From Bacteroidales bacterium (GTDB taxonomy: Bacteria > Bacteroidota > Bacteroidia > Bacteroidales > F082), in assembly GCA_024709145.1 (NCBI GenBank), contig JANJXG010000133.1, positions 1 to 64,000 of the forward strand: a stretch of DNA of 64,000 nucleotides, given 5' to 3'. Each line of letters begins with the position of its first letter. The first letter of the stretch is position 1. Position numbers and translations under genes: made by a program. Under the pieces are notes generated by a model. It saw only the letters and a list, made by a program, of their open reading frames with translations. It made no database searches and was not told where the DNA came from. Shown piece by piece: positions 4,341 through 8,678 of this stretch.

Positions 4341-5018
4341 TTATTTAGATTCTTCTTTGTCCTCCACTTTGCTCCAGTCGACCTGAAAACTACCTTTGCT
4401 GAGCACAATGCTGTCGGTTTCGTCCAGTTTTTTAGTGTTGTCGTGGTCGTGAGGGCCGCCATTGGCAAGCATTCCGCCACCAGCTTTTGTGAGCAGTTTG
4501 TCTTCAAGGTTGCCCCTGATACCTGAACCACTCACGGTGGCCATCGTCCGTTTTTTATAATAAACTCCGTTGAGTTTGGCTTCAAAGGTTCCTTTAATAA
4601 ATTTTTCGCCCAGCTCTTCGATGGTCAGCGTACCACTCAACGACTCACCGTCGTGAAAAGCATGGCCAAGTCCTTTGGTTTCTTCGGTGTAATCAATCAA
4701 TACCCATACCAGGTTGTCTTCTGATTTCTTCTTTTTTGAGGTCTTTTGCAGTTCTTCTTCCGAAATAACATTGTAGGTTCCGGGTTTCAATTCATCCTTA
4801 AAATAATACATTCTGATCCACACCTGAACATCGGGGCTAACCTGAAAGGCGGCCAGGGCAAGGTATTCAAATCCAAATCCGGGTATTTTCATTTTTTTTG
4901 CCTCCGCTTTCCAGGCCTCTCCATTGACTTCACAGGCGATAAAATTGTCTTTTTCCTGTGCAAAAAGTGTCCCCTGAAGGGTAACGAACAAAAGAATAAG
5001 TGCAGTAAGTTGTTTCAT
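4341..5018 (-). CDS. Exported protein of unknown function (DUF6252-like)
   Basis: 225 residues with a signal peptide (MKQLTALILLFVTLQGTLFA, then QEKD) that lacks a lipobox Cys, so the product is probably periplasmic or surface-exposed. The N-terminal half (CEVNGEAWKA ... WIRMYYFKDELKPGTYNV) resembles the DUF6252 type of Bacteroidota proteins, which are beta-rich and of unknown function. The C-terminal tail is polar, with a His/Asp-rich piece (GGPHDHDN) and a charged end. It has its own consensus promoter (5084-5114) and sits 182 bp beyond the end of the beta-propeller operon, so it is probably a separate transcript. I cannot assign a function. Confidence 0.75.
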   Translation of the reverse strand: MKQLTALILLFVTLQGTLFAQEKDNFIACEVNGEAWKAEAKKMKIPGFGFEYLALAAFQVSPDVQVWIRMYYFKDELKPGTYNVISEEELQKTSKKKKSEDNLVWVLIDYTEETKGLGHAFHDGESLSGTLTIEELGEKFIKGTFEAKLNGVYYKKRTMATVSGSGIRGNLEDKLLTKAGGGMLANGGPHDHDNTKKLDETDSIVLSKGSFQVDWSKVEDKEESK

Positions 5019-5200: not shown

Positions 5201-6838
5201 TTATTTTGTACTCAACTTGGTAACCGTTCTTTTTTCATAAACGTAGACAAAGTCACCGGCATTGGAAAGCGTTGTAATGGCTCCGGTTCTGGCTTTAAAA
5301 TCTTTATATTTGCAGGTGTTCAGATCGAAAGTACCAATATCAGCCTTGTCAGTTTTCATCACAAGTATGTCGCCGATATAATCTTCGAGTCTCGATGTGC
5401 GGTATTTTCCCGAATTGAGGAGTTCACCATTGCTAACGTTGAAGGTTGAAACACCCTTCTCGCCCACCACCACGATTACGTCATCTTTGAAAGGAAGGAT
5501 CATCTGGGCATTTCCTACACCCCCTTTACTCACCGGCACCGAAAACTTCTCTGCACCGGTTTCAATATCAAGTGAATAGAGCTCTTTTCCACTCGAAACG
5601 ATGGTATTTCCTGCAAAGGATATAGCATTGGTTATGCCTTTTTTGAATCTTTCCGACTCCCAGGCCAGTGTTCCGTCGCTTGCGTTAAACGCTTGAACGC
5701 CATAAGGTTTTACATTTTCAAAAACGATGGCTGTCTCCGTTACCATTTGGTCGCCGCTGCGATAGGTGCGCTGATATTGTACTTCGACCACACCACCAAT
5801 CTGAAGCAAAACCTTTCCTTTTTCCACCTGCATACCCGGAATGGCGCGTGCATCTTTGATTTCGGATGAAGTCCAAAGCAATTTGCCGGTCTTGAGATCA
5901 TACTTTTTAACATACTGCTTGCTTTTGCTTACCATGTCAAGCACATAGATATCCTGACCATCGATCACAGGGGCGGCAACAGCTCCGTAGACTCCAAAAA
6001 GTTTGGTTCCGACTGGTTTGCCTACGAGCTTTTCAGGCGTAAAATCAAAGGCTGCCGACCAAAGCTGGGCTCCTGTTTTGTAATCATACACCTGCATCCC
6101 GTTGAGACGCAGAAAAACTTTGTTATTGGTCACATCCAGCTCAAAAAGAAATTCCTTGCTGATTACTTTCCTTTCGGCCCTTCCGATGTAGGTGTTTTCC
6201 CAAAGGATTTCACCATTGGCCATGTTCATGCGGACAATCTGGTTTTTAAAGCCGGTGAACAAGGCTTCCAGTGCACCAGGAACAAAATTAACCATTGTCA
6301 TGGTGTGATCGCTGCCGTCATAATAGTATTGTCCAACAACACCTTTAAACTTTTCTGTGCTCCAAAGCTCTTCTCCGGTTCGCGCACGGATATAAACCAG
6401 TGATTTTTTCTGGGTGAGCGCAAAACAGTCCTCTTCTTCGATATAGGTTACCGAACTTTCACCTATGTCCTGATATTTATCCGTTGTCCAAAGGCTTTGG
6501 CCGGTCGCCAGGTCAACACAAACTATCTGATCCTTGCCCAGTTTACGCTCGAAAAGGAAAATGGTTTTTGACTCCCAAAAAGGTATCAACTCATCGATCT
6601 TGCGCAACTTTGGGGCTATATCGCCGAAATCCTTCGTCCAGATTACTTTTCCTGTTGCATTGTCGAACAGGGTCATGTCTTTTTCAGAGGCTGCATAGCT
6701 GGTTTCGCCCTCGACCCCTGTACCCGACCAAAGTATTTGATGAGACAGGCGTGATTCCCACACCACTGACATATCTTCCTGTGCCTGAAGCCATCCGGCC
6801 AGTAGAAGGAGTATTGAAAGTATCCAGGTTTTTTTCAT
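5201..6838 (-). CDS. Exported PQQ-like beta-propeller repeat protein
   Basis: 545 residues with a signal peptide (MKKTWILSILLLLAGWLQA, then QED). The rest is a run of blades with the W-x-x-x-x and D-x-x-T-G-x signatures of PQQ-like/quinoprotein propellers: DNATGKVIW, DLATGQSLW, RARTGEELW, NMANGEILW, DYKTGAQLW, DLKTGKLLW, NASDGTLAW, DIETGAEKF, NVSNGELLN. Such folds (for example BamB) are protein-binding scaffolds or PQQ enzymes; I see no evidence of cofactor use or catalysis. Last gene of a three-gene operon, 12 bp after its upstream neighbour. Location periplasmic or outer-membrane-facing by the signal peptide. Specific role unknown. Confidence 0.85.
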   Translation of the reverse strand: MKKTWILSILLLLAGWLQAQEDMSVVWESRLSHQILWSGTGVEGETSYAASEKDMTLFDNATGKVIWTKDFGDIAPKLRKIDELIPFWESKTIFLFERKLGKDQIVCVDLATGQSLWTTDKYQDIGESSVTYIEEEDCFALTQKKSLVYIRARTGEELWSTEKFKGVVGQYYYDGSDHTMTMVNFVPGALEALFTGFKNQIVRMNMANGEILWENTYIGRAERKVISKEFLFELDVTNNKVFLRLNGMQVYDYKTGAQLWSAAFDFTPEKLVGKPVGTKLFGVYGAVAAPVIDGQDIYVLDMVSKSKQYVKKYDLKTGKLLWTSSEIKDARAIPGMQVEKGKVLLQIGGVVEVQYQRTYRSGDQMVTETAIVFENVKPYGVQAFNASDGTLAWESERFKKGITNAISFAGNTIVSSGKELYSLDIETGAEKFSVPVSKGGVGNAQMILPFKDDVIVVVGEKGVSTFNVSNGELLNSGKYRTSRLEDYIGDILVMKTDKADIGTFDLNTCKYKDFKARTGAITTLSNAGDFVYVYEKRTVTKLSTK

Positions 6839-6850
6839 AGTTGTAAGTGT

Positions 6851-7216
6851 TTAAAATTTAAATACATAAGAGAATTTATAATCTTTGTTTTTTGGCATCT
6901 TGAAACTGAACCTAAACTGAAGAACTCTATCTTTCAGTTTATTCTGCGAGGGGATATCGGCATTCTTTTTGTCGGCAACAAACACCGAAACCACATCTCC
7001 TTTATCGCGAATGGTCAGTTGAAGGGTATATTCACCTTTGATTTTTTCTTTCTGGCCGAAAAGGTACAAAGCACCTTCAGGGGCTTGCATCGCTGAATCG
7101 AGCTCAGCAACTGCCTGACTGATGATCGCTTCCTTTGATTCAATCAATACCCTGTTCTGGGCTGTCAAACCAGTGAAAGCATAGAGAAAAAACAGAAAGA
7201 TGATGAGTTTTTTCAT
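6851..7216 (-). CDS. Small exported protein of unknown function
   Basis: 121 residues with a signal peptide (MKKLIIFLFFLYAFTGLTA, then QNRV). The mature ~100 residues are predicted beta-rich, with alternating hydrophobic strands such as YTLQLTIRDKGDVVSVFVA and an aromatic, basic C-terminus (FSFKMPKNKDYKFSYVFKF). I recognise no family. It sits between two beta-propeller genes, 10 bp after one and 12 bp before the other, so it is very likely co-transcribed with them and could be part of the same exported assembly. That link is inference from context only. Confidence 0.75.
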   Translation of the reverse strand: MKKLIIFLFFLYAFTGLTAQNRVLIESKEAIISQAVAELDSAMQAPEGALYLFGQKEKIKGEYTLQLTIRDKGDVVSVFVADKKNADIPSQNKLKDRVLQFRFSFKMPKNKDYKFSYVFKF

Positions 7217-7226
7217 AATAAAACAT

Positions 7227-8423
7227 TTATTCGTTGTTTATATTCCATAAAATCAACTGGTTACCCATAGCTATCAGTATTTCCTTGTCACCGGGAAGGA
7301 AAAGAAACGATGGTCTGGAATCTTTTATAAGCTTTTCACCTTCAGCGCTTTTCTCAAAAATTCGGCTCCCCATTTCAAAACGTTTTAACAAACTGCCATC
7401 TTCAAAATCATACAGATGAATTTCCTGGTGTCGGTTACCTTTTGAATTGATGGCAAAATATTGCTTGTTGCCGCTAATCCGTATATCCGGCTGACCAACT
7501 GCCTGAGAGGTGAGACCTTCGCGCAAAGGCTCGTGTGTTGTTGCATCTACCCTGCTCACATAGGTTAGCGTCTGTTTGCTTGTTTGAACCTTTATATGGG
7601 GTAATTGGAAAACAAACAACTTGCTGCCATCTTCTGAAAATCTTAAACGGTAAACAATGTCGTAGTACTCACTGACTGTTTGTGCTTTTTTTCCGGTGCT
7701 CACATCATAGAAACTCACCAGCTGCTTGTATTTCAATGCCATCTTCATCACTTTCTTTTTCTTGTGAAAGCGCTTGTCGGCTTTCACCTGAGCAGGTGTA
7801 ACGAGGTGAGATATCGCAATTTGCTGACCATCAGGACTAATGGCCAAAGCATCACAGGCACCTTCAACCTGAAATGTTTTCTTTTTAGAGCCATCTGCCA
7901 GGTTCCAAAAGGTGATTTCATTACCATCCAAACTCAATACATGCTGCTCGTCGGTGGTGATCATCACATCCTGCACATCCTCAAATTTCAACACCAGCCT
8001 ACCATTGGCAACATCAACAACCTCAAAGTTTAGTTTGCGGTTTTTGTTTTCGATCAAATCAGCAAAATTTAATTCCTGCAGCAAGAGGTATTTGCCGGTT
8101 GCCGAAAAATTGATTCTCGAACCGGGATACCATTTCCCGGCATCAATTTCTTTGATAAGCTCTTTGCTTTGCAGGTCGTAAAGACGAATGGGCTCCATCT
8201 TTTTAGCGCTCACAGCCAGTGTTTTACCATCAGGAGAGAGGCTTAAACCAGCATACACCACTTCTTTGTTACCAAGTTTAATTCTTTCAAAGTCGCTGTT
8301 GTCCGACTGAGCGTTCGTCAAGGAAAAGCTTAGCAGCAATGCCGCAGTTATGGCGGTTATTTGTATCCACCCGCACTTTACGCTGCTGATGGATCGATGT
8401 TGGGTAAAGTCATTTTTTTTCAT
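7227..8423 (-). CDS. Exported WD40-like beta-propeller protein
   Basis: 398 residues. An N-terminal stretch (MKKNDFTQHRSISSVKCGW) precedes a hydrophobic helix (ITAITAALLLSFSLTNAQ), read as a long signal peptide or anchor. The mature part has WD40/YVTN-type blades: LSPDGKTLAVSAK, RLYDLQSKEL, FSATGKYLLL, ISPDGQQIAISH, FSEDGSKLFVF, and a final ILIAMGNQLILWNIN. First gene of the operon that continues with the small protein and the PQQ-like propeller. The operon is preceded by the structured leader at 8443-8575 and the promoter at 8581-8611, so expression may be controlled by premature termination. No enzymatic motif seen; function unknown. Confidence 0.85.
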   Translation of the reverse strand: MKKNDFTQHRSISSVKCGWIQITAITAALLLSFSLTNAQSDNSDFERIKLGNKEVVYAGLSLSPDGKTLAVSAKKMEPIRLYDLQSKELIKEIDAGKWYPGSRINFSATGKYLLLQELNFADLIENKNRKLNFEVVDVANGRLVLKFEDVQDVMITTDEQHVLSLDGNEITFWNLADGSKKKTFQVEGACDALAISPDGQQIAISHLVTPAQVKADKRFHKKKKVMKMALKYKQLVSFYDVSTGKKAQTVSEYYDIVYRLRFSEDGSKLFVFQLPHIKVQTSKQTLTYVSRVDATTHEPLREGLTSQAVGQPDIRISGNKQYFAINSKGNRHQEIHLYDFEDGSLLKRFEMGSRIFEKSAEGEKLIKDSRPSFLFLPGDKEILIAMGNQLILWNINNE

Positions 8424-8442: not shown

Positions 8443-8575
8443 AAAAAAAATCACAGAGTTCCTTGCTCGTAATTGCTTTTTTCAACACCCACCGGTGACT
8501 GAAGAGCTGCGTGGAAACTCTGTGAAAAGGTCTTTTGAACTACCATGAAATGTTATCAATGAAAAAAGCAATTAC
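8443..8575 (-). ncRNA. Candidate structured leader (attenuator) or small RNA before the beta-propeller operon
   Basis: From the predicted start the RNA begins with GTAATTGCTTTTTTCA (8575-8560), which is perfectly complementary to 8484-8469. A second pair, TCACAGAGTTTCC (8525-8513) with GGAACTCTGTGA (8462-8451), has a one-base bulge and is followed directly by eight U (8450-8443), as in an intrinsic terminator. Inside it GCTC and GAGC can extend the stem. The two pairings are interleaved, so they compete or form a pseudoknot. The U-tract ends 19 nt before the start codon at 8423. I recognise no known riboswitch family. A terminator/antiterminator leader or a ~130-nt small RNA with read-through are both possible. 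Confidence 0.55.
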
Positions 8576-8580
8576 AAGGC

Positions 8581-8611
8581 CAAAACTAGTTTGCCCGGGA
8601 GCCGTTTTCAA
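8581..8611 (-). promoter_or_regulatory. Bacteroidota sigma-A promoter (TTG-N20-TAGTTTTG)
   Basis: Minus strand: TTG at 8611-8609, a 20-nt spacer, and TAGTTTTG at 8588-8581. Predicted start near 8575, exactly where the first arm of the structured leader begins. Confidence 0.75.
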
Positions 8612-8678
8612 TCCGTCACATCACGTATTTGCTCTACGACTTTTACCGTAGAAGCATAAAAAAATCGGAATAAATGGT

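Follow-up and report, generated by a model that had tools for sequence, protein, structure and literature searches.

A probable cis-acting leader RNA with two interleaved helices upstream of WD40-type propeller and DUF6252-type lipoprotein genes in Bacteroidales

The window, by which we mean the whole 64,000-nucleotide stretch of Bacteroidales DNA analyzed here, carries on its minus strand four genes, two of which encode beta-propeller proteins, preceded by a promoter and an RNA leader. The features of this locus are:

8634..8651, minus strand: putative DNA operator CTACGGTAAAAGTCGTAG, an imperfect palindrome upstream of the promoter, acting at the DNA level and lying outside the RNA
8611-8609, minus strand: TTG part of the promoter, followed by 20 nt, as read from the sequence
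8588-8581, minus strand: promoter box TAGTTTTG, which together with the TTG makes a Bacteroidota-type promoter (8581..8611)
8443..8575, minus strand: leader RNA element, with homologues found by DNA search, covariance models and a pattern for the core of helix A
8575-8560, minus strand: A1, outer part of the 5' arm of helix A (GTAATTGCTTTTTTCA), at or near the first transcribed nucleotides
8525-8513, minus strand: B1, 5' arm of helix B (TCACAGAGTTTCC), reaching 8507 in the model
8484-8469, minus strand: A2, 3' arm of helix A (TGAAAAAAGCAATTAC), a perfect 16-bp complement of A1
8462-8451, minus strand: B2, 3' arm of helix B (GGAACTCTGTGA), with 12 pairs to B1 and one bulged U
8450-8443, minus strand: tract of eight U, immediately 3' of B2
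7227..8423, minus strand: gene 1, an open reading frame for a secreted WD40-like beta-propeller protein of 398 aa with WD40-type Pfam matches, all except one under the curated cut-off
6851..7216, minus strand: gene 2, a secreted protein of 121 aa with a weak AgmX/PglI C-terminal match, under cut-off
5201..6838, minus strand: gene 3, a BamB/PQQ-type beta-propeller protein of 545 aa (PF13360, E 1.6e-31)
4341..5018, minus strand: gene 4, a secreted protein of 225 aa (NCBIfam NF052634, E 8.9e-4, under cut-off)

Direct reading of the sequence bore out what a preliminary description of this DNA had reported: the promoter, both pairs of arms, the run of eight U, the 19 nt between this run and the ATG at 8423, and the alternation of the arms. 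Along the leader the parts follow each other as A1, B1, A2, B2, U tract and start codon, so that the two helices are interleaved. Its length is about 133 nt, assuming that it ends at the U tract and with a 5' end placed from the promoter. The consensus promoter is given as TAnnTTTG / TTTG in PMC7366714, and most members of the family described below retain the TAnnTTTG box, L067 and L077 deviating from it. A perfect inverted repeat of 16 nt, the longest present in the 188-nt region, is not due to chance, since 400 dinucleotide shuffles never exceeded 11, a length reached twice.

The preliminary description had recognized no Rfam-type family, in agreement with our covariance searches of Rfam 15, where the element reaches the gathering score of no family, either in the window or at ten loci with relatives. 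At gathering scores the whole window gives only one tRNA match, elsewhere; to E 10 it gives two snoRNA matches, both far under their gathering scores. The ten loci give one tmRNA match, also far under the gathering score and mostly outside the element. We recognized no published description of the element among the titles and abstract starts searched, in a literature set without subscription papers, preprints or supplements.

Other copies of the leader precede a gene for a lipoprotein of the DUF6252 type (E 3.4e-13 for the one lipoprotein tested), a domain that we did not find in the literature searched, subscription papers and preprints lying outside it. Gene 4 is perhaps a distant relative of this lipoprotein: direct BLASTP between the two gives E 2e-4, and NF052634, which matches gene 4, also matches the L094 lipoprotein (E 2.9e-12, again under cut-off), the similarity being weak for the window protein.

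Judging from sequence comparison, the leader is a member of a structured RNA family in Bacteroidales and not a local curiosity. The usable members number 40, all from Bacteroidales genomes and including the window's own; several were delimited by eye. A DNA search of 41 genomes detected the leader in three other genomes of the same genus as the window (G004, G007, G008), and a fifth genus copy, recognized by eye, lies in front of the WD40 homologue in G001. All five lie between thioesterase and WD40 genes. Six of the nine genomes of this genus have a WD40 match, and the three without the gene are also without the leader by model; in G002 the leader cannot be seen because the WD40 gene reaches the contig edge. 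Two other DNA matches, L005 (E 0.0018) and L006 (E 0.0059), were rejected, being by eye without the other arms and the layout.

Covariance model R1 was built from the five genus leaders and R2 from eleven sequences, both fitted with helix B. Among the 173 genomes of the family, R1 matched 10 and R2 matched 20. In the order, R2 matched 6 of 393 genomes, counting the window's own and L080 (E 0.0154); the latter is probably false, as it overlaps a reading frame of 312-317 aa on either strand and has no WD40 or lipoprotein gene. R2 also matched 5 of 17 genomes in family f68, two of them already seen. The family of G380 gave one of two genomes, already seen. Nineteen contigs were found via the WD40 protein, and 14 of them have an R2 match at E < 0.001: seven already seen (G004, G007, G008, G001, G017, G058, G009) and seven new, two of which are cut at the leader by contig ends. 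The contigs obtained in this way are labelled uncultured Bacteroidetes, Bacteroidales and Prolixibacteraceae, and one MAG is labelled Chitinophaga pinensis. R3 matched no leader but the window's own among 345 genomes of the class; class-wide occurrence is judged here with B-fitted models and may be underestimated for variants such as L122. Opposite-strand matches at true members were discarded as an artefact, because B is symmetric.

A pattern for the A core matched 55 of the 173 genomes, and a reversed control pattern far fewer. These matches fall on leaders in nine genomes (G046, G013, G043, G065, G055, G070, G049, G020, G023), and many of the others resemble coding sequence. Three members that came from this pattern (L124, L161, L144) nevertheless have the B helix and a U-rich tract, and L124 and L144 also precede the expected gene. 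The leaders of genus g6 (L122, L126, L124, L161) follow the same layout and have the core CTCAAAGCCAT/ATGGCTTTGAG, but their B arms are unrelated in sequence; L144 likewise retains the layout with quite different B arms.

One weak R2 match (L096 1608-1737, E 0.043) lies before the gene of a 340-aa secreted protein that belongs to no Pfam or NCBIfam family. A good A core helix (TACCTTAAAGC/GCTTTAAGGTA) is visible by eye in this match, and the gene may be a third kind of target.

The gene context of the leader was established by tblastn for each member. The first gene downstream is a WD40 homologue in 24 of the 40 members and a DUF6252-type lipoprotein in 14, and the remaining two (L130, L161) run off the contig, with only 64 and 46 bases after B2. 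In six of the 14 lipoprotein cases (L051, L059, L076, L094, L095, L128), the WD40 gene follows at most 1400 nt further on. The start codon lies 15-33 nt after B2 in 33 of the 34 members where it was located, the exception being L077 with 104 nt. The WD40 homologue occurs in 28 of the 173 family genomes; by list comparison, R2 leaders are present in 16 of these 28 vs 4 of the 145 without the gene, and in those four the copy lies before the lipoprotein gene. Among the 12 WD40 genomes that lack an R2 match at the threshold used, a diverged variant is present in G013, G043 and G065, and G020 and G070 carry the leader in front of the lipoprotein gene. In G002 the contig edge hides the position, and no leader is seen in G064, G011 or four genomes of genus g15. 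Seven of the 28 family WD40 genes (L108, L109, L113-L116, L123) have no leader by model or by eye. In G018, the leader is found before the lipoprotein gene only, with none before the WD40 gene.

This distribution bears on whether the element could be a small RNA acting in trans, some 130 nt long and equipped with a promoter and terminator of its own, for which the position before these genes would be secondary. Its promoter, compact fold and U tract resemble those of an intergenic small RNA, and two copies each are present in G017 (one per gene kind) and G046 (one before the lipoprotein gene, one at a contig end). Such a role is nonetheless improbable, as 38 of the 40 members precede one of the two gene kinds and the other two are at a contig edge, a count that leaves out the probably false L080 and the L096 match with its third gene kind. 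The close spacing to the start codon and the association with genomes carrying the WD40 or lipoprotein gene argue in the same direction. Of the two architectures named in the preliminary description, attenuator or stable small RNA, comparison thus favors the first, whose order of parts recurs in other genera near the start codon, and speaks against a free-standing small RNA, of which no convincing copy was seen among the matches. A stable small RNA as a by-product of termination is possible.

Two cases depart from this organization. At L054 (1505-1576, minus strand), the operator, the promoter and the first leader nucleotides are retained before a DUF6252-type lipoprotein gene, and B1, A2 and B2 have been lost in a natural deletion; this gene would escape leader control if the attenuator model is true. 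Upstream of the WD40 gene of L113-L116 (genus g15), we noted by eye a different conserved-looking stretch, with a CAGGTA..TACCTG hairpin and GGCTTTTGA, which has another layout and is possibly a replacement for the leader.

Comparison across the family indicates that selection maintains A and B as RNA helices. In an alignment of eleven sequences, 94.6% of cells are paired, vs 32-49% in slid controls. Nine pairs are changed on both sides, one in A and eight in B (8 of its 17 pairs), although these counts lean towards B since R2 was fitted to it. The covariation score is 0.300 vs 0.181 in shuffles, with none of 500 shuffles as high. In A, the GTAATTG of A1 and its partner CAATT are invariant in the eleven aligned sequences, and both sides are changed in L077, L067 and L094. 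A column-pair scan without a given structure places segments of A and B among the best helices, and ranks other, weaker or A/U-rich runs similarly. Two further hairpins were dropped: C (CAC..GTG before A2) is present only in the window's genus, and D (TATTGGT/ACCAATA) resembles the inner end of A in this genus and is weak in the window itself.

Because A is long, irregular and badly aligned inside, we compared duplex energies between cognate and non-cognate arms in 17 clusters of the 40 members. Three loci cut by contig ends (L075, L087, L099), L054 with its deleted leader and L096:1608-1737 (E 0.043) were kept out of these energy tests. Cognate arms pair at a mean of -24.0 kcal/mol in A, vs -15.0 for non-cognate arms, and at -24.7 vs -12.4 kcal/mol in B. 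The cognate value is better than the non-cognate mean in all 17 clusters for both helices, and none of 20000 permutations is as low in either. The cognate partner outranks every other arm in 8 of 17 clusters for A and in 12 of 17 for B; the conserved A core lets non-cognate A arms pair as well. By eye, this core, UCAAAGC/GCUUUGA, often keeps its sequence amid variation in outer A and B, and it is altered in the window's genus, in Prolixibacteraceae and in genus g9. A is absent from the structure of R1 and R2, although the sequence of outer A is part of their consensus; the concern of circularity is eased by its absence from both structures, and by L124, L161 and L144, which were found by the A core and yet have B. 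The homologous leaders proposed as a check in the preliminary description therefore speak for the pairings, both of which are retained in other genera with arms that have changed and are still complementary.

The same comparisons weigh on an explanation at the level of DNA, in which A1 and A2 would be the repeats of a phase switch by site-specific inversion, or else operator sites. Promoter inversions are a known feature of Bacteroidota, and the inverted repeat of the window is perfect over 16 bp. Inversion sites would be expected to be identical; here, G-U pairs, bulges and mismatches occur in the arms across members, and the two arms change in concert as those of an RNA do. Every member also has the same orientation, a weaker argument since the search models favor that orientation. 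We regard this explanation as very improbable.

Helix B would form a stable hairpin (duplex energies of -16.5 to -29.6 kcal/mol in 17 cluster representatives) with a U-rich tract directly behind it, ahead of the coding region, as in an intrinsic terminator. Within the 8 nt that follow B2, 34 of the 40 members have at least five U and 38 at least four; the weak tracts have four U in four members and three in L078 and L079. A simple terminator scan, which permits loops of 3-8 nt only, did not list B.

In folding calculations, A forms in all 37 folded members when the RNA stops after A2 (at least 8 A pairs above a probability of 0.5). After the addition of B2, the computed equilibrium is dominated by B in 24 of the 37 and by A in 12, with the window's own leader undecided. 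Computation thus suggests that A forms first and that B, once complete, takes over in about two thirds of the members. For the window, the computed balance depends on the exact 5' end, since the full RNA started at 8576 has B as its best fold (-31.4) and the RNA started at 8579 favors A (mean pair probability of about 0.45, vs 0.06 for B). Folded in full from 8576, the RNA beats its shuffles by a small margin only (z -1.49, with 18 of 200 shuffles as good); without B2 the best fold is A, at -29.9 (z -3.05, 2 of 200 as good). When all A or all B pairs are enforced, the two states lie within 15.4 kcal/mol of each other and A is lower in 6 of 34, a comparison that understates A because its weak inner pairs are forced too.

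The two helices share almost no bases, so their relation depends on the linkers. Over the 40 members, the linker between B1 and A2 has a median of 2 nt (0-13) and that between A2 and B2 a median of 0 nt (0-11). Even fully extended, the B1-A2 linker would not span the A stem in 36 of the 40, an estimate that uses the duplex optimum for A, some inner pairs of which may be spurious. With linkers this short, full A and full B can hardly coexist in these 36 members.

The main rival reading is a functional pseudoknot, with outer A and the whole of B formed together and bound by a ligand or a protein (a riboswitch or an autoregulatory element) and acting on termination or translation. The interleaving of the helices in all 40 members and the abutting of A2 and B2, which would allow stacking, are both consistent with it, as is the conserved A core between variable outer A and B. 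The short B1-A2 linker counts against it, as inner A would have to open in the 36 members above. We judge such a fold unlikely, albeit with a probability that should be kept in mind. The preliminary description had offered mutual exclusion or a pseudoknot; the linkers favor exclusion of the full helices, and a partial pseudoknot of outer A with B is possible.

Termination could also be set by a ribosome translating a leader peptide. The window has a 31-codon ATG frame, from 8546 to a UGA inside B2. However, an ATG frame of at least six codons opens before B1 in only 11 of 37 members, and no common peptide was seen. Allowing GTG and TTG raises this to 35 of 37, as expected of U-rich sequence, again with no common peptide. 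No conserved short reading frame was found in the leaders of these 37 members, and we give a ribosome-mediated attenuator hardly any chance.

Upstream of the promoter, most members have a palindrome of the CTACGGTA..TACCGTAG type in the same place, about 45-62 nt upstream of the TAnnTTTG box (by eye). The site differs in L061 and is retained only in part in L122 and L126; L063 and L077 have full palindromes. A response regulator gene like that of L050 lies at most 1000 nt upstream in 16 of the 40 members, some loci being too short upstream to tell. The L050 regulator has a receiver and a GerE domain, and the L086 kinase has TPR, HisKA_3 and HATPase domains. The palindrome is probably the operator of the adjacent NarL-type response regulator, to which we infer that it binds.

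Taken as a whole, the element is probably a cis-acting bistable leader RNA, and a transcription attenuator would be its most likely mode of action; termination, the direction of control and the signal are proposed here from the layout. Transcription would begin at A1 from the TAnnTTTG promoter, probably activated by the NarL-type regulator. As A2 emerges, A1 and A2 would zip into a long hairpin (14-39 pairs at the computed optimum) with B1 in its loop. B2 would emerge next, with almost no spacer, and after it the U-rich tract, some 20 nt short of the start codon. As long as hairpin A persists, B1 would be held at its far end, out of reach of B2, and the polymerase would read into the genes. 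If A is prevented or opened, the B1-B2 hairpin (11-19 pairs) and the U tract would end transcription. Antiterminator and terminator would thus compete by geometry, with almost no bases in common. The signal could be a metabolite, a protein or a small RNA meeting the 5' end or the A core. Given that A is the first to form, read-through may be the default unless A1 or this core is contacted by something.

Riboswitches that alternate between competing folds, for instance the HMP-PP riboswitch (thiS motif, a terminator-embedded aptamer), would come nearest to this logic among the described systems that we found. The HMP-PP riboswitch (PMC6478431) has two competing folds supported by conservation in the leader of a small gene set, one with a strong stem and U run and the other with a possible pseudoknot, as is proposed here. 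The HMP-PP folds share bases of one terminator stem, whereas A and B share almost none; sequence, size and genes are also different, and the element is without an Rfam match. For a riboswitch, the conserved core found by eye in many members would be a putative aptamer core only. The fluoride (crcB) and other pseudoknotted transcriptional riboswitches also couple a pseudoknot-capable RNA to an intrinsic terminator (PMC11077080). In these, the pseudoknotted aptamer lies upstream of a separate terminator, whereas here the putative terminator arms interleave with the other helix. Antitermination of the ANTAR/EutV and TRAP types resembles the element, as modelled here, in having mutually exclusive antiterminator and terminator structures in a leader (PMC3369936, PMC3369931, PMC3913778). 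Unlike in ANTAR systems, the neighboring regulator carries a GerE DNA-binding domain and no ANTAR domain, in the one example analyzed. HDV-like ribozymes have the arm order P1-P2-P1'-P2'. The element has this same interleaved order; it differs from them in its longer helices, its U tract and the lack of an Rfam ribozyme match.

Few RNA switches are, to our knowledge, known in non-model Bacteroidota. We tentatively suggest that the leader may represent an undescribed attenuator class of Bacteroidales, in which antiterminator and terminator have no pairing bases in common and a hairpin at the 5' end traps the 5' arm of the terminator in its loop. It might then add a second, RNA-level decision to a two-component-controlled envelope regulon of WD40/BamB propellers and DUF6252 lipoproteins. 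What sets the element apart is an unusual layout of interleaved, non-overlapping helices, together with good covariation, a small and consistent set of targets and a conserved promoter region. Through the leader, two groups of proteins of unknown function (those of the WD40 propeller operon, and the DUF6252 lipoproteins) are linked under one control, and one may ask which signal such a regulon would sense twice, at the promoter and in the RNA.
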